Shown here: positions 13,927 to 39,395 of the stretch, in pieces
Layout of the letters: each line of letters starts with the position of its first letter
How positions within the stretch are numbered: the first letter of the stretch is position 1
DNA from: Deltaproteobacteria bacterium
GTDB taxonomy: Bacteria > Myxococcota > Myxococcia > SLRQ01
Length of the DNA: 46,003 nucleotides
Direction: 5' to 3'
Assembly (NCBI GenBank): GCA_029210625.1
Contig: JARGFU010000032.1
Coordinates: 1 to 46,003 of the forward strand
The notes under the pieces: generated by a model
Told to the model about the DNA's origin: nothing
What the model saw: the letters and a program-made list of their open reading frames with translations, nothing else
The model's database searches: none
Program-made: the position numbers and the translations under genes

Positions 13927-15171
13927 ATGCGTCGTATCAACACCCTTATCGGGCTCACTCTGGGCTGTTTCCTCGCGCTCGGCGCCCTGGGCTGCTTCGG
14001 CGGCGGCGACGGCGGCGGCGGCGGCGACACCGACTGCACCGTCGATGCCGACTGCAACGACAACACCCAGCGCTGCACCACGGCGGGCGCCTGCGTCTCG
14101 AAGTGCGAGGGCGTGATCTGCAACACCGGACAGACCTGCGAGGCGACGACCGGCAACTGCACCGGCGGCAGCGGTGGCTGCACCGTGGACGCTGACTGCA
14201 ACAACGCCACGCAGCGCTGCGACTCCACGTCCAGCACCTGCGTCTCCAAGTGCCAGGGCGTGGTCTGCGGCACCGGCGAGACCTGCGAGCCCACCACCGG
14301 CACCTGCGGCGGCGGCAGCACCACCTGCGCCACCGACACCGACTGCGACCCGAACGGTGACCTCGGCCACGTCTGCGACGGCGGCACCTGCGCGGCGGAC
14401 GTCTTCGGCGACTGCGCCACCGTCTCCTGCCTCACCGGCCTCGACTGCCTGAGCATCCCGACCCAGTCCGGCACCTCTCAGGTGTGCTATGAGCCCTGCG
14501 CCGACTCCAGCGCCTGCGGCCTCGGCTGGTGGTGCGACGCCGCCGCCGGCAGCCCGACCCAGGGCCACTGCGACCAGAACCTCTGCGGCCCCCAGCTGGC
14601 CCAGTACGGCTACCAGGGCACCCCGATGATGGGCACCTGCGATGCCACCGCCACCGGCGCCGGCGACGGCGTCTGCATGGGGCCCCTGGTCGACTTCGGC
14701 TCCGCCGGCTCTCCCCTCGAGGTGGGCCTCTGCATGGCCACCGGCTCCATCGCCGCGGGTAACAGCTGCCCCGCCGATGCCACCAACGGCGCCACCGCCG
14801 ACCTCTGCGTCTCCGGCCTCTGCCTGATCGAGACCGAGGGTGCCGCGACCGGCCTCTGCCGCTCCTTCTGCACCCTGCTCGACGGCAACGACTGCGTCGC
14901 CGACGTCACCGGCCCGACCTCCTGCACGCCCTTCGGCGGCCTGGCCGGCGTCTGCGTCCCGCAGTCCGCCACCCCGGCGGCCGCGGGCGCGAGCTGCACC
15001 GCCTCCAACGCCGAGTCGACCTGCGTCGAGGACAGCATCTGCATCGACCCGGCCGGCGGCACCGCCACCGTCTGCTCGAGCTTCTGCGACACCCGCGTGG
15101 GCACTTGCCCCTCGGGTACCTGCCAGCCGACCTCGAGCAACTCGAGCGACATGCTCGGCATCTGCATCTAG
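13927..15171 (+). CDS. Cysteine-rich lipoprotein, 414 aa
   Basis: An exported lipoprotein whose signal peptide ends LGALGC (Cys23), followed by a glycine-rich spacer. The mature chain contains 50 cysteines in 414 residues and should be held together by disulfides formed outside the cytoplasm. Residues 37-79 and 85-127 are a tandem duplication of one module (CTVDADCN..TQRC...CVSKC.GV.C). The rest has further spaced cysteine pairs and a shared domain also found in the next gene. No catalytic motif is seen; a surface or adhesive role is inference. AGGAG precedes the ATG. A strong intrinsic terminator follows at 15197. Confidence 0.85.
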   Translation: MRRINTLIGLTLGCFLALGALGCFGGGDGGGGGDTDCTVDADCNDNTQRCTTAGACVSKCEGVICNTGQTCEATTGNCTGGSGGCTVDADCNNATQRCDSTSSTCVSKCQGVVCGTGETCEPTTGTCGGGSTTCATDTDCDPNGDLGHVCDGGTCAADVFGDCATVSCLTGLDCLSIPTQSGTSQVCYEPCADSSACGLGWWCDAAAGSPTQGHCDQNLCGPQLAQYGYQGTPMMGTCDATATGAGDGVCMGPLVDFGSAGSPLEVGLCMATGSIAAGNSCPADATNGATADLCVSGLCLIETEGAATGLCRSFCTLLDGNDCVADVTGPTSCTPFGGLAGVCVPQSATPAAAGASCTASNAESTCVEDSICIDPAGGTATVCSSFCDTRVGTCPSGTCQPTSSNSSDMLGICI

Positions 15172-25350: not shown

Positions 25351-28300
25351 ATGGCTCGACCGGAGATCCACCGGCGCCCGGGAGGCGCCACGACCCTGGC
25401 CCTGCTCGGGCTGCTGTTCCTCGGCGGCTGCCGCTCGAAGCTCTGCCTCACCGGGGACCGGGAGTGTGACCTGCCCTCGCCCTGCGCCGGGCTCACCTTC
25501 ACCTGCGACGTGGCCGAGGGCGACGAGCCCTCGGTGAAGGTCTACGAGGCAGGCGACCCGCTGCCGGCCGGCCTCGACACCCTGGTGAGCCCGGGGGACT
25601 TCCTCCTCCAGAACGACCAGGTGGTCGCGGTGATCGAGGCCCTCGATCACGCCCACTACCTGGGGACCAGCGGCGGCAACCTCCTGGACCTGGCCTCGCG
25701 CGGCGGCGCCGACACCCTCAACCACGTGATCCAGGCGATCGGCCTCCTGCCCGAGGACGCCGCGGTCTACACCGACGCCCGGATGATCTCCGGCGAGGGC
25801 CTCGTCGCCCTGCAGGTCACCGGACACCTCGACGGGCACCCCGACCTGCGCATCGCGACCCGCTACGAGCTGCGGGCCTGCGAGCCGGGCCTGCGCATCC
25901 GCACCGAGTTCGCCAACCTCGAGCCCGATCCGAAGATGGTCGCGCTCCTCGACGGCCTCTACTGGAGCGGCCGCGAGAACCTCCCCTTCACCCCGGTGGC
26001 CGGCACGGGCTTCGTCCACCCCTCCTTCGGCCTGACCACCGTGGGCGACGTCTACACCGACGCCCCCTTCCTGGCGGCCACGGCCCACACCGAGGAGGCC
26101 TCGAGCTACGCCGTGTTGGCCTGCGACCAGCCCCACCTCTCGGGCTTCCACTCGGACGTGGTCTCGGCCGTGGGCAAGCGCCCGGTGCTCCTGACGACCC
26201 GCTCGACCGCCTCCCTCGAGCGCTTCTTCGGGGTGGTCCCCGGCCGCTCGGTGGGGCCCGCCGCCGACCTCGCCCTCGAGGTGCGCGAGCAGCTCTTCGA
26301 CGAGCGCTGGGTGCGGATCGACGGGCAGATCGTCACGAGCGGGGGTGGCCCCCTCGGGGACGAGGCCCGGGCCTCGGTGATCCTGGAGGAGGGCAGCCTC
26401 ACTCAGGAGCGCGGCGCCCGGACGCCCTGGACCCAGGTGGCGCCCGACGCCGAGGGCCGCTTCTCGGCGCGGGTGCCCTGGCAGCGCGGTTACGTCCTCA
26501 CCGTCGAGGCCTTCGGCCGGCCGGTGGAGGAGCGGGCCCTGGACGTGGACATCACCAACCTGGACCTGGGCCGGATCGCCATCCCGGGCGACGCCACCCT
26601 CACCCTGCAGGTGCTGCGGGACGGGGTGCCCGGCGAGGGGCTGGTCTTCTTCCACCCGGCGGACGAGGCCACCCGGGAGGCGGTCTCCGGCCGGCTGCAC
26701 GGCGTCTGGTCGACCTGCGCGCCCCTCCTGGGCGCACCCCACGGAGGCTCGCCCGCCTGCAACCGGGTGCTGGTGACCCAGACCACCGCCGTGGCGGTGC
26801 CCGCGGGCAACTACGAGGTCTTCGCCACCGCCGGCCCCTTCCGGCGCCTGGGCCGGGCCTCCCTGAGCGTGGCCGAGGGCGAGGCGCAGAGCCTCTCCTT
26901 CGATCTGGGCGCGCTCCCCCTGAAGCCCACCGGCACCCTCGACGGGGACTTCCACGTGCACGGCGGCGCCTCCTTCGACTCGTCGATCCCCCACCTCGAT
27001 CGCGTGCGGGCCTTCCTCGCGGCGGACCTCGACGTGATCGTGGCGACGGATCACGACGTGGTCCACGACTACGCCGCGGCGCGGGCGACCCTCGACGCGG
27101 ACGCGCGGCTGGCCCTCATCGTGGGCGTGGAGACGACCGGCCACGTCCTCTACGGCCTGGACCCGAACACCTACGTGCCCAAGGTCATCGGGCACTGGAT
27201 CTTCTGGCCCCTGGACCTCGACCCCCTGGCCCCCCGCCGCGGGATGCCCTGGGACGAGGAGGTCGAGCCCGGCGGCCTGATGGAGCGGATGGCCGGGGCC
27301 GGCTGGCCGGACGAGCGCGGCATCGCGCAGCTCAACCACCCCTACGCCGAGGCGGACTTCGGCCGGGACCTCGGCTGGCCGAAGGCGCTGGGCATCGATC
27401 TGGACCTGCCCCTCCCCACCCAGGACGACGGCAGCTCGGCGGCCCTCTACCTGCGCACCCCCGAGGGCGGCCGCTTCGGCAACGGCGACTACCACGCCCA
27501 GGAGGTGATGAACGGCACCGAGAACGGGGACCTCCTGCCCTACCGGGCCTTCTGGTTCTACCTGCTGAACCAGGGGATCCTGCGCGCCGGCACCGCGAAC
27601 AGCGACTCCCACGGCCTGACCGACAACGTCCTGGGCACCCCCCGCAACCTGATCTGGGCCAACACTCCGGTGGTGCCCTTCTCGGAGCCGGTCTTCGACA
27701 CCGCGGTGCGCGAGGGGAGGATGATCGGCACCAACGGGCCCGTCCTCGAGGTCGCGCTCGACCGGGGCAGCGGCGCCCCCCTCGGCCCCTCGATCCTCCC
27801 GGTGCAGCCGACCGCCGGCAGCAGCCTCCGGATCCGGGTGAGCGCCGCTCCCTGGGTGCCGGTGGAGGAGGTCCGGATCATCGTCAACGGGACGGTGGTG
27901 AGGACCTTCGACGGGGCGGAGCTCGTCACCCCCCTGGACCCCTTCGGCGCCAGCGAGCTGCTGCGCCTCGAGCAGAGCCTGCCGCTCTCCGAGCTGCTGC
28001 CCGAGGCGGGCGACGCCTGGATCGTCGTCGAGGCCGGCGCCCCGCTGCCGCAGGCGGGTGACCTCGACTGCGACGGAGTGCCCGACACCACCGACAACGA
28101 CGGAGACGGCGCCATCGACTGGCGGGACGTCGACCGCAACGATGACGGCGTGGTCGACGCGGCCGACCTCGACGTGAACGAGGACGGCAAGCGGGACGCG
28201 AAGGACACCCCGGCGGCCTGCGAGGGAGGGGAGGGGCCGCTCCGGAACCCCGCCCTGCCCGAGGCCAGCGACGCGCCGGCGCGGATCTTCGAGGCGGTGA

Positions 28301-28395
28301 CCCCCGGCGGCTACCCCTTCGCCTTCACCAACCCCTTCGTGATCGACCGCGAGGGCGACGGCTTCGACGCCCCGGGGCTGGAAGGAGGCTCGTGA
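25351..28395 (+). CDS. PHP-domain lipoprotein, CehA/McbA family
   Basis: A 1014-residue lipoprotein with the lipobox LGGC at the end of its signal peptide. Residues 50-350 are beta-rich; residues 350-520 look like carboxypeptidase-regulatory or Ig-like modules. Residues about 525-800 form a PHP metallohydrolase domain with its metal ligands in order: DGDFHVHGG, VIVATDHDVVHDY, VGVETTG, QLNHPY and NSDSHG. The C terminus has Asp-rich calcium-binding repeats (DCDGVPDTTDNDGDGAIDW, DRNDDGVVD). The CehA/McbA group includes carbaryl hydrolase and microcin-processing enzymes, but the substrate here cannot be named. GGGGAG precedes the ATG. Its stop overlaps the next start (TGATG). Confidence 0.82.
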   Translation: MARPEIHRRPGGATTLALLGLLFLGGCRSKLCLTGDRECDLPSPCAGLTFTCDVAEGDEPSVKVYEAGDPLPAGLDTLVSPGDFLLQNDQVVAVIEALDHAHYLGTSGGNLLDLASRGGADTLNHVIQAIGLLPEDAAVYTDARMISGEGLVALQVTGHLDGHPDLRIATRYELRACEPGLRIRTEFANLEPDPKMVALLDGLYWSGRENLPFTPVAGTGFVHPSFGLTTVGDVYTDAPFLAATAHTEEASSYAVLACDQPHLSGFHSDVVSAVGKRPVLLTTRSTASLERFFGVVPGRSVGPAADLALEVREQLFDERWVRIDGQIVTSGGGPLGDEARASVILEEGSLTQERGARTPWTQVAPDAEGRFSARVPWQRGYVLTVEAFGRPVEERALDVDITNLDLGRIAIPGDATLTLQVLRDGVPGEGLVFFHPADEATREAVSGRLHGVWSTCAPLLGAPHGGSPACNRVLVTQTTAVAVPAGNYEVFATAGPFRRLGRASLSVAEGEAQSLSFDLGALPLKPTGTLDGDFHVHGGASFDSSIPHLDRVRAFLAADLDVIVATDHDVVHDYAAARATLDADARLALIVGVETTGHVLYGLDPNTYVPKVIGHWIFWPLDLDPLAPRRGMPWDEEVEPGGLMERMAGAGWPDERGIAQLNHPYAEADFGRDLGWPKALGIDLDLPLPTQDDGSSAALYLRTPEGGRFGNGDYHAQEVMNGTENGDLLPYRAFWFYLLNQGILRAGTANSDSHGLTDNVLGTPRNLIWANTPVVPFSEPVFDTAVREGRMIGTNGPVLEVALDRGSGAPLGPSILPVQPTAGSSLRIRVSAAPWVPVEEVRIIVNGTVVRTFDGAELVTPLDPFGASELLRLEQSLPLSELLPEAGDAWIVVEAGAPLPQAGDLDCDGVPDTTDNDGDGAIDWRDVDRNDDGVVDAADLDVNEDGKRDAKDTPAACEGGEGPLRNPALPEASDAPARIFEAVTPGGYPFAFTNPFVIDREGDGFDAPGLEGGS

Positions 28396-29282: not shown

Positions 29283-30332
29283 ATGGCCATGACCGCTGAC
29301 AGAGTCCACGACCCCACGGGGGGGGTCGGGGTCCTGCCCCTGGACCCCGATGCCCGGGATCGGGCAATCGTGAGGCGCATCCTCGCCGGTGAGCGCGAGG
29401 CCTTCGAGGAGCTCGTCACCCGCCACGGCCCCGGCCTGCGCCGGACCATCGAGCGCATGCTCGGGCGGCCCGACGTGGCGGACGAGGCGGTGCAGGAGGT
29501 CTTCCTGCGGGCCTGGAATGCCCTGGGGAGCTACCGGGGGGACGCCACGGTGCGCGGCTGGCTCTACCGGATCGCCACCAACCACTGCCGGGACCTGCGC
29601 AAGCGCCCGGGCTGGAAGGAGCGGACCGCCTCGGACCCGGCGGAGGTGATCTCCGGGCAGGCGACGCCGGAGGACCGCAGCCCGGAGCAGCGCGCCGCTC
29701 ACCGGCGGGCACTCGGCGCGGTCCAGGCGGCGCTCACCGCGCGCCTGCGCCAGGACCCCGCCCTCCGGAAGCGCCTCGCCCGGCTGGAGCAGGTGGACGA
29801 GCTGGTCCGTGGTCTGGGCGAGCCTCCCGCCGACCCGGATCCCGAGCTCACCCGGCGGGTGATGGAGCGGATCGCGGCGGAGCCGGCGCCCCGGCCGGCC
29901 GCCCAGCTCGACGCGCACCGGCCGCGCCGGACCTTCTCCTGGCCGACCGCCCTCGCGGCCTGCCTCCTCCTCCTGATCGGCTTCCTGGCCGGGCGCTTCG
30001 CGCACCGGCCGGCGCCGAGGGAGGGCCAGGGGAGCGACGCGGCGACGCTCGCCCGTGTCGACGCGCCGGAACCCGGGGGCGTGGTCGTCCACTTCGTCCT
30101 CGAGGCGGGCGAGGCCCGGACCGTCTCGGTGGTGGGCACCTTCAACGGCTGGGCCCCGGAGGCCCACCCCATGCACCGCTCGCAGGGCCGCTGGATCGCC
30201 CGGCTGCGCCTGCCGCCCGGCCGGCACGAGTACCAGTTCCTGATCGATGGCGAGCGGTGGATCGTGGATCCCTCGGCGCCGTCCACGGCCCAGGATGGCT
30301 TCGGGGGCGTGAACGGGGTGCTCGAGATCTGA
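29283..30332 (+). CDS. Fusion: ECF sigma region 2, anti-sigma-like segment, TM helix and CBM48 domain
   Basis: A 349-residue protein with an unusual order of parts. Residues 30-108 are a sigma-70 region 2 of ECF type (FEELVTRHGPGLRRTIERM, DEAVQEVFLRAWNAL, VRGWLYRIATNHCRDLRKR), which binds RNA polymerase and the -10 element. Region 4 should follow after about residue 145, yet is absent. The chain moves instead into TARLRQDPALRKRLARLEQV and PPADPDPELTRRVMERI, typical of the helical part of anti-sigma factors. Residues 221-240 are a membrane helix (PTALAACLLLLIGFLAGRFA). Residues 263-349 are a CBM48/AMPK-type glycan-binding domain (VVGTFNGWAPEAHPM, GRHEYQFLIDGE). It probably arose by deletion fusing a sigma gene to its anti-sigma gene. 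It heads the cluster 30367-32915. Confidence 0.85.
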   Translation: MAMTADRVHDPTGGVGVLPLDPDARDRAIVRRILAGEREAFEELVTRHGPGLRRTIERMLGRPDVADEAVQEVFLRAWNALGSYRGDATVRGWLYRIATNHCRDLRKRPGWKERTASDPAEVISGQATPEDRSPEQRAAHRRALGAVQAALTARLRQDPALRKRLARLEQVDELVRGLGEPPADPDPELTRRVMERIAAEPAPRPAAQLDAHRPRRTFSWPTALAACLLLLIGFLAGRFAHRPAPREGQGSDAATLARVDAPEPGGVVVHFVLEAGEARTVSVVGTFNGWAPEAHPMHRSQGRWIARLRLPPGRHEYQFLIDGERWIVDPSAPSTAQDGFGGVNGVLEI

Positions 30333-33075: not shown

Positions 33076-33777
33076 ATGTCTCGCTCCTGGAGAACGCTCA
33101 CCCTCGCTCTCTTCCTTCTCGGCTGGGCCCTGGCTGCTCCCGCGGAGGAGCCGGCGGTCACCGGCGCTCCCGCCACCTCCGGCGACGAGGCACCGGGCGC
33201 CGGCCTCTTCGGCGCCGGCGTGGTCCTCGGGTTCAAGGCAGGAGGCGGCTTGGGGCAGCTGACCAGCCCCCTGGGCGCGTCGCTGGTGGCGGAGCTCGAG
33301 CTCGGCTACACCCTGCCGCTCCCCGAGCCCGTCGGCCGCGATCTGCAGCTCTTCCTCGCGGGTCAGTACATCGGCCCCTCGGTCAGCGAGACCGTCTCGG
33401 AGCCGGATCCCCGTCTCCCGGGCGACGGCACCTGGAGCTACTCCGTGACGCTCCAGCAGGCGATCCTCGCGCTCGGCGTGCTCTACCGGCTCCCCCTCGG
33501 TCCGGAGTGGCTCCGGCCCTACCTCTCCGCCGGCGCGCGCCTCACCCTGAGCCGGGCCGTGGTCAGCGGCGACGCGGAGGGGGAGCCCTTCGGGGAGAAC
33601 GAGGAGACCGCCACCGACCTCGGCGGCCAGGGCGCCCTCGGCGCCGAGCTGGCCCTCGGCCCGGGCGCGCTCCTCCTCGAGCTGCAGTTCGGCTACGCGC
33701 CGCTCGACGGGAAGGTGTTCCAGAACACCAACTCGGGCGCGCTCGCGTTCGCCCTCGGCTACCGCCTCTTCTTCTAG
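33076..33777 (+). CDS. Predicted outer-membrane beta-barrel protein, 233 aa
   Basis: The signal peptide reads MSRSWRTLTLALFLLGWALA, and cleavage is likely near APAEE. The mature chain is built of alternating strands (AELELGYTLPLPEP, LQQAILALGVLYRLPLGPEW, ALLLELQFGYAPLDGK) and ends in GYRLFF, a standard outer-membrane barrel C terminus. It resembles small OmpA-type or 'outer membrane beta-barrel' proteins, with some eight strands. GAAGGG precedes the ATG at 33076. The upstream in-frame extension runs through the intergenic hairpin and was rejected. The long IPT/Kelch lipoprotein gene starts 44 bases later, so the two may be co-transcribed. Confidence 0.8.
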   Translation: MSRSWRTLTLALFLLGWALAAPAEEPAVTGAPATSGDEAPGAGLFGAGVVLGFKAGGGLGQLTSPLGASLVAELELGYTLPLPEPVGRDLQLFLAGQYIGPSVSETVSEPDPRLPGDGTWSYSVTLQQAILALGVLYRLPLGPEWLRPYLSAGARLTLSRAVVSGDAEGEPFGENEETATDLGGQGALGAELALGPGALLLELQFGYAPLDGKVFQNTNSGALAFALGYRLFF

Positions 33778-33821: not shown

Positions 33822-36800
33822 ATGCGCTCGCTCCCCAACTTCCTGGACCTCGCCCCTTCGCCCCGGGTCCTCCTCGCGGCCCTGCTCCTCGCCCTGGCCC
33901 TGCCGGGCTGCCGCGCCGAGCTCGACGGCCCGACCGTCGTCGTCGCCGACCCCGCCCCCGACGCCGAGCTGCCCGTCTCGCCCGGCATCCTCTGCCGGAT
34001 GCAGCACCCCGAGGCAGGCACCCCGGTGATCGTGAGCGGGGAGGGGCTCTCGCCGCTGCCCTTCGACATCCCCGACGATCCCACCCTCGCCTTGCCCTCC
34101 CTCTCTCTCCTGCTCCACAGCGACCTGGCCGGCGCGGCGATCGACCCGAGCGAGATCGTCTACGGGGGCGAGCCGGGCGAGCCCAACGCTGAGCTCCTCA
34201 GCTGGCAGACCCAGAGCCAGCTCACCTTCCTCGTCCGGGACGAGCTCCTCCTGGCGGAGGGGGCGTCCGGCATGCTGCCCGTCGGCATCTACGATCTTCG
34301 GGTCGACAACCCGAACGGCGCGCAAGCCACCACGGCCAGCTCCCTCGCCGTGACCGACCGTCCCCGGGTCTCGTCCGTCACGCCCGGGATCACCTGCCTC
34401 GACGAGGGGCCTCGCACCCTCACCCTCGACGGCGAGACCGTGCTCCGGATCGAGGGGGAGGACGCCTTCGTCCGCGTCGGGGGCGACGACTTCGCCGTCA
34501 GCGGCTTCGAGCGCTGCACGCCGATCGCCCACGGCGCCGTCTCCGCGCAGAGCTGCGAGCAGGTCACCCTGGAGCTCGACCAGGGCGCGGTCGCGGTGGG
34601 CTACCCCGAGCTCACCTTCCAGAACCCCGAGACCGCGGCGTGCAGCTCGGTCCACGACGAGGACCAGATCAACCTGCGGGTGGTGCCGGCGCCGACCCTC
34701 GAGGCGGCGATCCCCTCCCTGATCTGCTCGGCCGAGGGCACCCGGGAGGTGGTCCTGCAGGGCACCGGGCTGCTGGCCATCGACGGCGAGCTCCCCTCGG
34801 TGACCCTCCTCGACGAGAGCGGCACCGTCCGGACCCTGACGGTCACCCTGCCGGCGTCCACCCTCGCCGGCGAACCCAACTGCAGTCCCCTGACGACCCT
34901 GGGACACACCGTGGAGCTCTGCAGCGAGGCGTCGATCGTGGTGCCGGTCGAGAACCCGAGCGCGCCCTACAAGCCGACCCTCACCCTCACCAACCCCGCG
35001 CCGGCCGGCTGCGCGGGGAGCACGGATCTCGAGCTCATGCTGGTGCCCGAACCGACCCTCGACGCGATGGTCGCGCCGCTCTCCTGCATCGCGCAGGGCG
35101 ATCGCGGCTTCACCCTCCAGGGCACCGGCTTCCTCGGGGTGGACCACGGAAGCGGTGAGGTGCTGCCGTCGATCTTCGTGGACGGCGTCGAGCTTCACCC
35201 GAGCGACCTCGGGCAGTGCGAGAGCCTGGACGTGGTGGGGCTCACCGTCCGCCGCTGCCAGGAGGCCTACCTGTTGGTTCCCGAGGGCCTGATGACCGTC
35301 GCCGACGGAACCTGGGCGCAGCCCGAGCTCCGCCTGACCAACCCCGCGCCGGCGGGCTGCAGCGGGGAGCACACCACGGCCCTCACCCTGGTGCCGCCGC
35401 CGACCCTCGCTAGCGCCGAACCCTCCCTCGTCTGCACCGAGCAGGGGACCACCGAGGTGGTGGTCACCGGAACCGGCTTCCTCTCCGTGGGTGAGGGCGC
35501 CGGAGCGCAGCTGCCCGCGGTCACGGTGGGTGGTGATCTCGTGACCGTCAGCGCCCTGGCCGGCTGCGCCAGCGTGCCGGCGGAGGGGCTCACCGTGGAG
35601 CAGTGCGATCAGATGACCCTCACCCTGCCCGTGGGCGCCGGGGATCCCACGAACTCCGAGATCGTGGTGACGAACCCGAGCCCCGCCGGCTGCGGCGCGA
35701 GCGACGCGGACGCGCTGGTGATCGCGCCGCCCCCGCGGATCGACTCCCTCGCGCCTCCCGTCCTCTGCGACGTCGGTGGACCGGCCCTCGTCACCTTGAG
35801 CGGCGAGCACTTCCTCACCGTGGACGGCGTCGTCCCGGAGGTGACCCTCGCGGGGACCGCCCTGCCGCCGGGCAGTGTCACGGCCCTGGGCTGCAGCCCC
35901 CTCACGGTGCCGCGGCTCGGCGTCGAGACCTGCACGACCCTCGAGGTCACGGTCTCACCCGGCAGCTTCGCCGACTCCTCGGTGGAGGTGGGCGTGATCA
36001 ATCCGGCCCCTGCCGGCTGCTCGGCCACGGCCGTCGAGCTGCTCTCCTCGGTCACGCCGCCCGTGATCACCACCGCCCAGCCCGCGCTGGTCTGCACGGA
36101 CGAGGGTGCCCGGACGATCGTCCTCCAGGGCACCGGCTTCTTCGACGTCGGTGGGGTGCTGCCTTCGGTCACCCTCGGCGGAAGCCCGGTCCAGAGCCAG
36201 TCCATCACCGGCTGCACGCCCGTCACCCTCGGCTCCACCACCGCCGAGCGCTGCACCGAGCTGACCGTCGTCGCCCCACAGTCGAGCCTGTCGTCGGGCG
36301 ATGTCGAGGTGAGCCTCGTCAACCCGGCGCCCATCGGCTGCAGCGTCGCCACCGCGACGGTGCTGGACGCTCCTCCCGCGATCGCCATCCACTCGGTCGC
36401 GCCCTCCGCGGTCTGCGCCGCCCTGGCGGCGCCGCTGACCGTCACCGTCGCGGGGGAGGGCTTCCTGGACGTGGACGGTGCGCTGCCCACCCTCACGGTC
36501 GCCGGAGCGACCCTGGCGGTGGACGGTCTCGCGACCTGCTCCTCCCTGAGCGTGGCCGGGATGAGCGTGGCGAGCTGCAACGAGCTCACCTTCACCGTCG
36601 ATCCCTCCACCCTGAGCGGCACGGACATCCCCATCGCCATCACCAACGCCGCGCCCTCGAGCTGCGGCGCGAGCGCCACCGGGGTCTTCTTCCTGACCCC
36701 GCCGCCCACGCTCACCGGCGTGACCACGCCCAACTTCTGTGCCAGCGACGGGGGCACCATCGGCCTCGTCGGCACGAACTTCACCGCCGGCACCCAGGTC

Positions 36801-39395
36801 ACCCTCGAGAGCGGCACCACCGTCCACGTGGGGACCGTCACCTACAACGACCCCACCTCGCTGGAGGTCACCTTCCCGCCCGGGCTCGACGCGGGGACCT
36901 ACGACCTGCGGGTGAGCGCCACCGGCTGCGACGACGTCCTGGTCGGGGCCGTGTCCGTCGACCCGGCGCCCCTGGTCTTCTTCATCGATCCTCCCACCGT
37001 CTACAACGGGGTGATCACCGAGGTGACCCTCTTCACCACCGGCCTCTCCGACACCTACGGGGCCTCCACCGTCGAGCTGCTCTATCCCGACGGCGCGACG
37101 ACGACCTCGCTGCCCTTCACCGAGGGCAGCCGGGCCAACCGGCTGCTCACGCCCATCCCGGCCGACGATCCCGAGAACCCGGGCTCGCCGCTGCCCCCCG
37201 GCGCCTTCGAGCTGCAGGTGACCAACGCCCTCGGCTGCACCAGCGCCCTCAACGGGAGCCTTACGGTCACCGACACCCTCACCCTGGAACTCGAGGGCAT
37301 CGATCCGGCCTACGTCTCGCCCACCCGGGAGACGGCGGTGAGCATCACCGCGCAGGACACCTCGGCGGTGGTCTTCGAGTCCACCCCGCGGGTCTACCTC
37401 AACCCGAACCCCCCCGGTGCGGGCTCGCCCGTGGGCCTGACCGCGGTGCTCTTCGAGAGCGACCGCCTCCTGACGGCCGTGGTGCCCGCGGGGATGACCC
37501 CGGGCGACTACGATCTGATCGTGGTCAACCCCTCCGGGTCGGTGGGGCTCCTCCCGCTGGCCCTGACGGTCACGCCCAGTGAGCCGCCGCTGGTCGAGGT
37601 GGTCGTGCCGGCCGCGGTGGACGCCATCGCCGACTCTCCGGCTCAGATCCGGGGCTCGGGCTTCGCCACCGACGCTGGCGGGGTGGGGGTCGACCTCGAC
37701 TGCCGCGACACCGTCGGCGCGACCTACACCTTCTCGGCGACCAACGTCACCGTGGTCGACGCAGGCACCATCGACGTGACCCTGCCGGTGGACTCCGCCG
37801 GGGTCCCCATCGGCAGCGTCTGCCTGCTCACCGTCACCAACCTCACCGAGGGCTCCTCCTTCACCTACTCCGCGGTGTCGGTGAAGAACGCCTCCCAGAA
37901 CCTCAACGCCTGGTCTCAGCTGACGCCGATGAACGAGGGCCGCCGGGCGCTCGCCCTAATCGCCGGCCGGCCCACCAACACCAGCCGCTTCCTCTACGCC
38001 ATCGGTGGCGACGGGGGAGACTTCTCCACGGCCAAGACCTCGGTGGAGGCCGTCGGCGTGGACGTCTTCGGTGGCTTCACCGCCGCGGGCTGGCAGGATC
38101 AGCGCAACGCCCTCCCGGCGCCCCGCTCGAACGCTGGCTTCGCCCGGATCGGCCGCTTCCTCTACCTGACCGGAGGCCACCGGGGTCCGGACGGCGGGGG
38201 CAGCCTGACCGATGGCGAGACCAACACCTCCCTCCGGGCTGAGATCCTCGATCCCCGGACGACCCCGGAGCTCGTCGATCTCGACGCCGACCTGCTGGAG
38301 ACCGGCGGGCTCAGCGCGGGGCTCTACTTCTACGAGGTCTCCGCGACCTTCCCGAGCAACGATCCGAGCAACCCCTCCGGGGAGTCCCTCCCCGGTGAGG
38401 TCCTCACCGTCCAGCTGCCGGCGATCTCCGTGGGGGGTATCGAGCTCACCCTGAAGTGGGACGACCTGCGACGAGAGGACGGCACGCTGGTGGGCGCGAA
38501 CGGCTACCGGGTCTACCGGGCCCTGCCCGTGGCCGGCGGTGGGGCAGGGGACTTCGAGCTCCTCCACTCGGTCACCTGCGGGGCGGACACCACCTGCCTC
38601 TGTGGCATCGACTTCGACTGCGAGGTGGTGGACGTGGGGCAGCCCACCGACCCGGCCTCCCTGCCGCTCATGCGCGGCGCCCTCGGCGTCTGGCACGACA
38701 CCACGGACTTCCTCACTCCACGGGAGGGGCACGCCACCGTCGCCCTCAGGCATCCGGATCCCCTGAAGGCCGACACCTGGTACCTCTACGTCTTCGGCGG
38801 CCGGAACGACACCAGCGGGGCCCTGGACACCTACGAGTGGGCCACGGTCACCGTGGCGGCTGACGGCAGCCAGACCGTCTCGGCCTGGACCACCGGCAGC
38901 AAGGCCATCGGTGGGGCCAAGTCGAACCTCGCGGCCTGGGTGCTCGACGCCGACGAGACAGCCCACGTGGGGGGTGACGAGGTCTACGTCTTCCTCGGCA
39001 CCGGCCTGAACGACGCCGGCAATCCGGTGAACGGCCTGGCCTCCGGTTGGCTGGACACGACCAGCACCGACGGTGACCTCTTCAGCGCCGGCGCGACGGC
39101 GCTGGACCCCGAGGACGGCCCGGCGTCGGCCCGGGGTGCGGCCTGCTTCGGGGACGCCAACGGCTTCATCTTCACCTTCGGCGGCTTCGTCTCCGGGGGG
39201 CTCGCCAACGACCGCTCGGCGGAGGTGGTCGCTGGTCCGGACCTGGCCAACGTCTGGCAGGCCCCCGGTGGAGGCGATCTGAACCTGCGGCGCTCCTACT
39301 GCGCCTCGGCCCAGGAGAGCGCCTTCTTCTTCACTGCGGGGGGAACGACAGCGACCGAGACCGCGACGACCTCCGTCGAGACGACTGTCCAATAG
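33822..39395 (+). CDS. Giant IPT/TIG-like and Kelch-like lipoprotein, 1857 aa
   Basis: The largest gene of the window. The signal peptide ends LLALALPGCRAEL, a lipobox. From about residue 185 to 965 there are seven repeats of 107-123 residues, each with IPT/TIG-like wording (GTGFL...LP.VTVGG) and four conserved cysteines, closing NPAPAGC or a variant. Plainer IPT-like domains follow to about residue 1350. A Kelch-like propeller then begins (RFLYAIGGDGG, RFLYLTGGHRG), interrupted by a fibronectin-like insert with YEVSATFPSN and GYRVYRAL, and resumes (WYLYVFGGRNDT, GFIFTFGG). Such architecture suits a surface adhesin or binding protein; the ligand is unknown. AAGGAG sits 11 bases before the ATG. 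Confidence 0.88.
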   Translation: MRSLPNFLDLAPSPRVLLAALLLALALPGCRAELDGPTVVVADPAPDAELPVSPGILCRMQHPEAGTPVIVSGEGLSPLPFDIPDDPTLALPSLSLLLHSDLAGAAIDPSEIVYGGEPGEPNAELLSWQTQSQLTFLVRDELLLAEGASGMLPVGIYDLRVDNPNGAQATTASSLAVTDRPRVSSVTPGITCLDEGPRTLTLDGETVLRIEGEDAFVRVGGDDFAVSGFERCTPIAHGAVSAQSCEQVTLELDQGAVAVGYPELTFQNPETAACSSVHDEDQINLRVVPAPTLEAAIPSLICSAEGTREVVLQGTGLLAIDGELPSVTLLDESGTVRTLTVTLPASTLAGEPNCSPLTTLGHTVELCSEASIVVPVENPSAPYKPTLTLTNPAPAGCAGSTDLELMLVPEPTLDAMVAPLSCIAQGDRGFTLQGTGFLGVDHGSGEVLPSIFVDGVELHPSDLGQCESLDVVGLTVRRCQEAYLLVPEGLMTVADGTWAQPELRLTNPAPAGCSGEHTTALTLVPPPTLASAEPSLVCTEQGTTEVVVTGTGFLSVGEGAGAQLPAVTVGGDLVTVSALAGCASVPAEGLTVEQCDQMTLTLPVGAGDPTNSEIVVTNPSPAGCGASDADALVIAPPPRIDSLAPPVLCDVGGPALVTLSGEHFLTVDGVVPEVTLAGTALPPGSVTALGCSPLTVPRLGVETCTTLEVTVSPGSFADSSVEVGVINPAPAGCSATAVELLSSVTPPVITTAQPALVCTDEGARTIVLQGTGFFDVGGVLPSVTLGGSPVQSQSITGCTPVTLGSTTAERCTELTVVAPQSSLSSGDVEVSLVNPAPIGCSVATATVLDAPPAIAIHSVAPSAVCAALAAPLTVTVAGEGFLDVDGALPTLTVAGATLAVDGLATCSSLSVAGMSVASCNELTFTVDPSTLSGTDIPIAITNAAPSSCGASATGVFFLTPPPTLTGVTTPNFCASDGGTIGLVGTNFTAGTQVTLESGTTVHVGTVTYNDPTSLEVTFPPGLDAGTYDLRVSATGCDDVLVGAVSVDPAPLVFFIDPPTVYNGVITEVTLFTTGLSDTYGASTVELLYPDGATTTSLPFTEGSRANRLLTPIPADDPENPGSPLPPGAFELQVTNALGCTSALNGSLTVTDTLTLELEGIDPAYVSPTRETAVSITAQDTSAVVFESTPRVYLNPNPPGAGSPVGLTAVLFESDRLLTAVVPAGMTPGDYDLIVVNPSGSVGLLPLALTVTPSEPPLVEVVVPAAVDAIADSPAQIRGSGFATDAGGVGVDLDCRDTVGATYTFSATNVTVVDAGTIDVTLPVDSAGVPIGSVCLLTVTNLTEGSSFTYSAVSVKNASQNLNAWSQLTPMNEGRRALALIAGRPTNTSRFLYAIGGDGGDFSTAKTSVEAVGVDVFGGFTAAGWQDQRNALPAPRSNAGFARIGRFLYLTGGHRGPDGGGSLTDGETNTSLRAEILDPRTTPELVDLDADLLETGGLSAGLYFYEVSATFPSNDPSNPSGESLPGEVLTVQLPAISVGGIELTLKWDDLRREDGTLVGANGYRVYRALPVAGGGAGDFELLHSVTCGADTTCLCGIDFDCEVVDVGQPTDPASLPLMRGALGVWHDTTDFLTPREGHATVALRHPDPLKADTWYLYVFGGRNDTSGALDTYEWATVTVAADGSQTVSAWTTGSKAIGGAKSNLAAWVLDADETAHVGGDEVYVFLGTGLNDAGNPVNGLASGWLDTTSTDGDLFSAGATALDPEDGPASARGAACFGDANGFIFTFGGFVSGGLANDRSAEVVAGPDLANVWQAPGGGDLNLRRSYCASAQESAFFFTAGGTTATETATTSVETTVQ
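34360..36700 (+). repeat. Seven four-cysteine IPT-like protein repeats
   Basis: Units of about 321-370 bases, marked at their ends by codons for NPETAAC, NPAPAGC (three exact copies), NPSPAGC, NPAPIGC and NAAPSSC. Each unit has cysteines near the start (LxC), mid-unit (GC or NC, then ExC-type) and at the end. They are diverged in DNA, so the duplication is old. Confidence 0.75.

Follow-up and report, generated by a model that had tools for sequence, protein, structure and literature searches.

The gene at positions 33822-39395 of the window (the whole stretch of 46,003 nucleotides that was analysed; every window feature given below is on the forward strand) encodes a 1857-residue lipoprotein that is, with somewhat better than even probability, a Myxococcota receptor or adhesin with a lipid anchor, in which a disulfide-stapled rod carries an outward-facing propeller and an OmpA-type barrel, encoded next to it, assists in its placement. 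It looks like a surface receptor or adhesin with an exchangeable stalk and a barrel of its own, of a kind not described before. No description of the lipoprotein family was found in the literature searched; MXAN_7222, named as a 'kelch domain protein' in PMC3986340, was not linked to this family.

Domains of the lipoprotein

The orf begins with a signal peptide and lipobox (residues 1-30, 33822-33911; lipid-bearing Cys30 in the motif LPGC), followed by a putative docking domain, dom1 (residues 44-179, 33951-34358; profile match E 1.4e-37), which carries a single cysteine of the type called C1 below (Cys58) and none of the C4 type. Alignment of the dom1 family against the repeat family by hhalign (probability 97.3, E 2.6e-11) identifies dom1 as a distant relative of the IPT domain. 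Next come seven IPT-like repeats with four cysteines each (C1 to C4), delimited by cysteine spacing and a repeat profile, the last two also by a structural model: repeat 1 (34359-34688; Cys 192, 232, 245, 274), repeat 2 (34689-35048; Cys 302, 354, 367, 397), repeat 3 (35049-35396; Cys 422, 466, 479, 513), repeat 4 (35397-35729; Cys 538, 582, 595, 624), repeat 5 (35730-36056; Cys 649, 691, 704, 733), repeat 6 (36057-36377; Cys 758, 798, 811, 840) and repeat 7 (36378-36689; Cys 865, 906, 919, 948). Between repeats and head, the model delimits a base IPT domain with two cysteines (36690-36962; Cys973 as C1 and Cys1036 as C4), also matched by NCBIfam NF058597, and, together with the alignment, a last cysteine-bearing IPT domain with only a C4-type cysteine, Cys1139 (residues 1048-1160, 36963-37301), and two further beta-sandwich domains (residues 1161-1349, 37302-37868), in which the columns of Cys1294 and Cys1334 are each cysteine in 63 of 65 relatives. 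The protein ends in a six-bladed Kelch propeller head (residues 1350-1857, 37869-39392), split by a fibronectin-III-like insert (38238-38708).

The original prediction of a 1857-residue lipoprotein with exactly seven four-cysteine repeats is borne out by the lipobox and the seven cysteine quartets, and a profile search with the repeat recovered all seven. Its description of the repeat edge NPAPAGC as almost invariant was too strong, because the motif is exact in just three of the seven repeats; the other edges are NPETAAC, NPSPAGC, NPAPIGC and NAAPSSC. It had also overlooked dom1, the two-cysteine and one-cysteine IPT domains that follow the repeats, and the adjoining barrel gene. The spacing C-40-C-13-C-29-C recurs among relatives, with 174 spacing matches in 58 proteins, at least one of which (at the N-terminus of the protein of locus L070) is spurious on reading.

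No Pfam family scored above its cut-off in a scan of the lipoprotein. The IPT/TIG family PF01833 is not above cut-off in it and is above in the base domains of relatives (L038, L039, L042, L043); Kelch_1 is above cut-off in two relatives (L039, L043), and the lipoprotein itself has no Kelch match. NF058597 (choice-of-anchor Z repeating domain) matches three stretches at 46.1 bits against a cut-off of 30, covering the base and some other IPT domains; its model is without the four-cysteine repeats, the head or the barrel.

An AlphaFold2 (AF2) model of residues 746-1857, built from 65 aligned relatives (mean pLDDT 90.8), has the strand pattern of a row of beta-sandwich domains (pLDDT about 90), as had been anticipated for the repeats. 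Foldseek matches of the stalk to Ig rods and to plexin A1 IPT3-6 (5l7n, E 9.9e-10) point to the Ig-like E-set fold. The Kelch-like end that had been proposed aligns by VIA-align with the Kelch domain of NS1-BP (Z 33.8, 273 residues, rmsd 2.2 A), and a PDB sequence profile also leads to Kelch proteins, so that model and structure matches agree on a rod-plus-propeller layout. For the insert, a fibronectin-like identity is backed by a weak PDB profile match to the Fn3-like 3mpc (E 3.5e-5), and there is no Pfam match in any of eight members. The Ig-rod matches of 36057-39392 also take in a fragment of GhpA, the Aureispira grappling hook protein (9flw, E 1.4e-10), which probably reflects no more than the shared Ig fold.

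An enzymatic propeller, or one belonging to a degradative system, is an alternative to a receptor. Three points would suit it: Kelch propellers include some enzymes, carbohydrate-active enzymes commonly have Fn3-like inserts, and the PDB profile matches of the insert include a CBM6 protein (5g56, E 0.0011). However, the best structural matches of the head are the protein-binding Kelch domains of NS1-BP, Keap1, KLHL12 and LZTR1, and profile searches returned no catalytic family match; both results are still compatible with an enzyme, which is nevertheless very improbable.

Predicted cysteine pairing and exchange of the stalk

The four cysteines of each repeat had been taken to imply either two disulfides or a cross-linked rod. 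In the model of repeats 6 and 7, C2 and C3 are exact cross-strand hairpin partners (58+61=53+66 and 166+169=161+174 in model numbering); C1 is placed between the first and second long strands, and C4 comes immediately ahead of the last strand. In the Ig fold, the loop between the first two strands and the loop before the last strand sit at opposite ends of the sandwich; contact between C1 and C4 within a repeat is therefore hardly possible, and by the modelled topology C1 of one domain would face C4 of the next across the linker. Pairing of C1 with C4 of the following domain, together with C2-C3 within each repeat, is thus favoured by predicted topology and by natural variants over two disulfides inside each repeat: a cross-linked rod is supported, though in a form that had not been expected, with predicted disulfides between neighbours, and two disulfides inside each repeat are the less likely reading. 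C2-C3 would close the hairpin inside each repeat, and C1 at the far end would staple to C4 at the near end of the next domain, the predicted staples being 58-274, 192-397, 302-513, 422-624, 538-733, 649-840, 758-948, 865-1036 and 973-1139. Because each C1 would be stapled to the domain that follows, the rod would be a continuous chain of inter-domain disulfides. Such conserved disulfides presuppose an oxidising compartment.

With this pairing, none of the nine C1 and nine C4 cysteines of the lipoprotein, from Cys58 to Cys1139, is left over; pairing within repeats leaves over precisely those two. The C4 column of the last IPT domain is cysteine in all 65 aligned relatives, and the lone cysteine of dom1 was found upstream in 36 of 36 readable IPT-stalked proteins, a count that leaves out L047 (where the parse ended early), L023 and L079. 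By a gap-based parse, which misread five DUF4215 proteins as four-cysteine repeats and ended early in others, stapling leaves no array cysteine over in 56 of 57 proteins (the exception, L050, is a contig-edge fragment), and intra-repeat pairing leaves at least one over in all 57. The odd number of stalk cysteines in L042 counts against stapling.

Disulfides inside each repeat (C1-C4 and C2-C3), with Cys58 and Cys1139 free, buried or linking two molecules, were the first idea, which was set aside because topology and natural variants disagree with it. Such pairing is the commonest arrangement of conserved cysteine pairs in repeats, and among the 184 repeat domains long enough to be judged (222 were found by profile) C1 and C4 are concordant in 179 and all four cysteines are present in 175, figures compatible with either pairing. 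It is nonetheless improbable, as it would join residues at opposite ends of a sandwich, leaves two lone cysteines that are conserved in almost all members, and gives no account of three kinds of variant with exchanged stalks. The common head is found on stalks of four-cysteine IPT, DUF4215, PKD or Big_2 domains. In the protein of L064, where Big_2 replaces the repeats, C1 of the base and the last C4 are kept and C4 of the base is lost, as the staple rule predicts; pairing within domains would leave the base C1 without its partner. In 4/4 PKD-stalked proteins, the final PKD domain carries an additional cysteine just before its second strand, which is the place of C1 in IPT, and the regular pair alone is present in 40/41 internal PKD domains; these four heads fall in two places on the head tree. 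In DUF4215 stalks, a lone cysteine precedes the first C1 by 13-14 residues in 7/7 proteins. Intra-repeat pairing assigns no role to either of these additional cysteines. Among 14 relatives without repeats, nine have as array cysteines only that of dom1 and a second one 184-185 residues further on, and the other five have different cysteine patterns.

The four stalk classes require at least six changes on the head tree (57 labelled rows; the tree holds 65 heads, was made by a quick method and has 28 of 62 branches starred), and the number of four-cysteine repeats ranges from 0 to 8 between relatives, one genome being taken per species. In 5/5 loci scanned, the DUF4215-stalked Kelch heads have a tandem gene for a protein that likewise has a DUF4215 stalk and carries a C-type lectin domain (L038:5744-8329, L039:6955-8421, L054:12460-14244, L077:7029-8504 and L078:5469-7709); a tandem orf with DUF4215 is present in L031 as well. 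Two tandem genes scanned beside PKD-stalked heads proved to be PKD-only. Tandem copies of the lipoprotein gene occur within one locus in L060 and in L069, which suggests local duplication. The genome of the window holds a second copy of the lipoprotein (1580 residues) and a third relative (L119:5380-9648, reverse strand) with a TSP3-repeat stalk and a Kelch-type head, apparently with two Fn3-like inserts and three MopE-type metal-binding motifs.

The adjoining barrel gene and the genomic setting

A gene at 33076-33777, whose stop is separated from the start of the lipoprotein gene by 44 bases, encodes a protein of 233 residues with a signal peptide and the C-terminal end GYRLFF, identified by an AF2 model (pLDDT 89, eight strands), Foldseek matches to OmpA (9fzd_A, E 1.4e-7), OmpX, OprF and Ail, and conservation as an OmpA-type eight-stranded outer-membrane beta-barrel. 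The PF13505 family is above cut-off in the barrels of two relatives (L018, L023), below it in L061 and without a match in L030 and L072. In most relatives the barrel gene directly follows the lipoprotein gene.

Neighbourhoods were counted for 59 heads, of which 39 are IPT-stalked with enough flanking sequence, 10 have other stalks and 10 could not be judged. The barrel adjoins 34/39 IPT-stalked heads versus 0/10 of the others (Fisher p 3.7e-7, uncorrected for relatedness); the five without it are L050, L056, L059, L062 and the first of two tandem copies in L069. All 13 further loci (L100-L113, minus L102) have the barrel. Full-length genes divide into 28 with both dom1 and barrel, two with dom1 alone (dom1 is present and the barrel absent in L062, for instance), ten with neither and none with the barrel alone, a tally that leaves eight undecidable at contig ends. 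Large f2 family genomes have a headless form of the lipoprotein, 400 residues long, which consists of dom1 and the last IPT domain without the propeller, and a barrel gene lies alongside in 5/6 such loci (L027, L136, L137, L139 and L141). The idea that the barrel is the partner of the propeller was rejected, as headless forms keep the barrel and heads lacking dom1 are without it. Because the barrel tracks dom1 and is kept in headless forms, it most likely serves the membrane-proximal end of the lipoprotein. The barrel family is not exclusive to neighbours of dom1, since L140, L142 and L143 have barrels with no dom1 neighbour.

The pair of lipoprotein and OmpA-type barrel would also suit a complex in the periplasm: the lipoprotein would face that space as a scaffold attached to the outer membrane's inner leaflet, with the barrel as its membrane anchor. 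This arrangement is unlikely, though less so than pairing within repeats or an enzymatic head: about twelve Ig-like domains and a propeller, if extended, would exceed the width of the periplasm, and the change of stalk to DUF4215 and PKD and the C-type lectin tandem genes look like ligand binding at the surface.

Promoter and terminator scans were uninformative. Elsewhere in the window, a single orf at 29283-30332 encodes sigma-70 region 2 fused with a glycogen-binding C-terminus of CBM48/AMPK type. In G007 and G034 these parts are in separate orfs about 260 bases apart, and sigma region 4 accordingly seems to be missing from the window's orf, which is either a true fusion or the product of an assembly deletion. 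A 1014-residue lipoprotein (25351-28395) has a C-terminal half that by eye resembles a PHP-type metal hydrolase and only a weak CarboxypepD_reg match, and another lipoprotein (13927-15171, 414 residues) is rich in cysteine.

Distribution and proposed function

A scan of 84,980 species genomes found 56 loci, the record titles of which name Myxococcota or 'Deltaproteobacteria' metagenome-assembled genomes, bar a few vague ones. A profile of base plus head matches 125 of 195 genomes of the phylum at E 1e-3, many of them in the IPT part only, and the four-cysteine repeat profile at E 1e-6 matches at least 15 of the 195, with 24 candidates scored per genome. Within that scoring limit, the possibility that the four-cysteine repeat is a general module of many proteins was not borne out: all 19 listed contigs that match its profile also carry the head.

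The barrel is proposed to dock dom1, and would thereby place or keep the lipoprotein at the outer membrane in an outward-facing position; the stapled rod would hold the propeller away from the cell, at a reach set by the number of repeats and the type of stalk, and the propeller may bind a ligand on another cell, a matrix or a surface. By analogy, and given the conserved barrel partner, a role as surface adhesin is plausible. The original prediction had suggested contact with prey or surfaces; nothing pointing to prey contact in particular was found in this analysis. A wider proposal, offered tentatively and at somewhat less than even probability, is that Myxococcota possess a modular surface-display platform, in which dom1 is bound to the barrel and stapled stalks and heads are exchangeable (some forms being headless), dom1 and the barrel are lost jointly in other branches, which have DUF4215 or PKD stalks instead, and the domain before any C4-bearing IPT domain, of whatever fold, supplies the partner cysteine, so that one disulfide chain runs unbroken.

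Several known systems, as described in the available parts of the papers cited, resemble the lipoprotein. The periscope proteins SasG, Rib and Sgo_0707 (PMC8201768) likewise have a rod of tandem folded domains, the variable number of which sets the distance of the head from the cell. Their head is N-terminal, their wall anchor C-terminal and their adjacent repeats highly similar, whereas here a lipid anchor is N-terminal, the head is C-terminal, disulfides apparently link the repeats, and the repeats are divergent, with only 25-47% identity to the first row of their alignment. The extenders of RTX adhesins (PMC7493085) are also rods of Ig-like beta-sandwiches with stiffened linkers and a ligand-binding end that reaches out, but they are stiffened by calcium in the linkers rather than, as apparently here, by a disulfide across each linker, and the secretion and anchoring of RTX adhesins differ from those of the lipoprotein. 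CglB with the Glt barrels and TraA with TraB of Myxococcus (PMC12288465) likewise pair a surface adhesin or recognition protein with an outer-membrane beta-barrel; CglB is a VWA lipoprotein and TraA is anchored by MYXO-CTERM, and neither domain is seen here. The MAT fibres of Bdellovibrio (PMC10769870) present exchanged tips, one of them of C-type lectin fold, on a common fibre, which is a trimeric beta-helix, in contrast to the Ig-like stalks found here, where exchange affects both stalk and head. The lipoprotein system is assigned to none of the periscope, RTX extender, CglB or TraAB systems.

These results point to a two-gene module of lipoprotein and barrel in many Myxococcota genomes, show that a single propeller head is borne by four or more kinds of stalk, and bear on the question of lipoprotein placement at the myxobacterial surface. 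They also supply a testable rule for the possible stiffening of a bacterial Ig-like rod by covalent bonds between domains instead of by calcium, and the headless form of the large f2 genomes may allow tests in laboratory myxobacteria.
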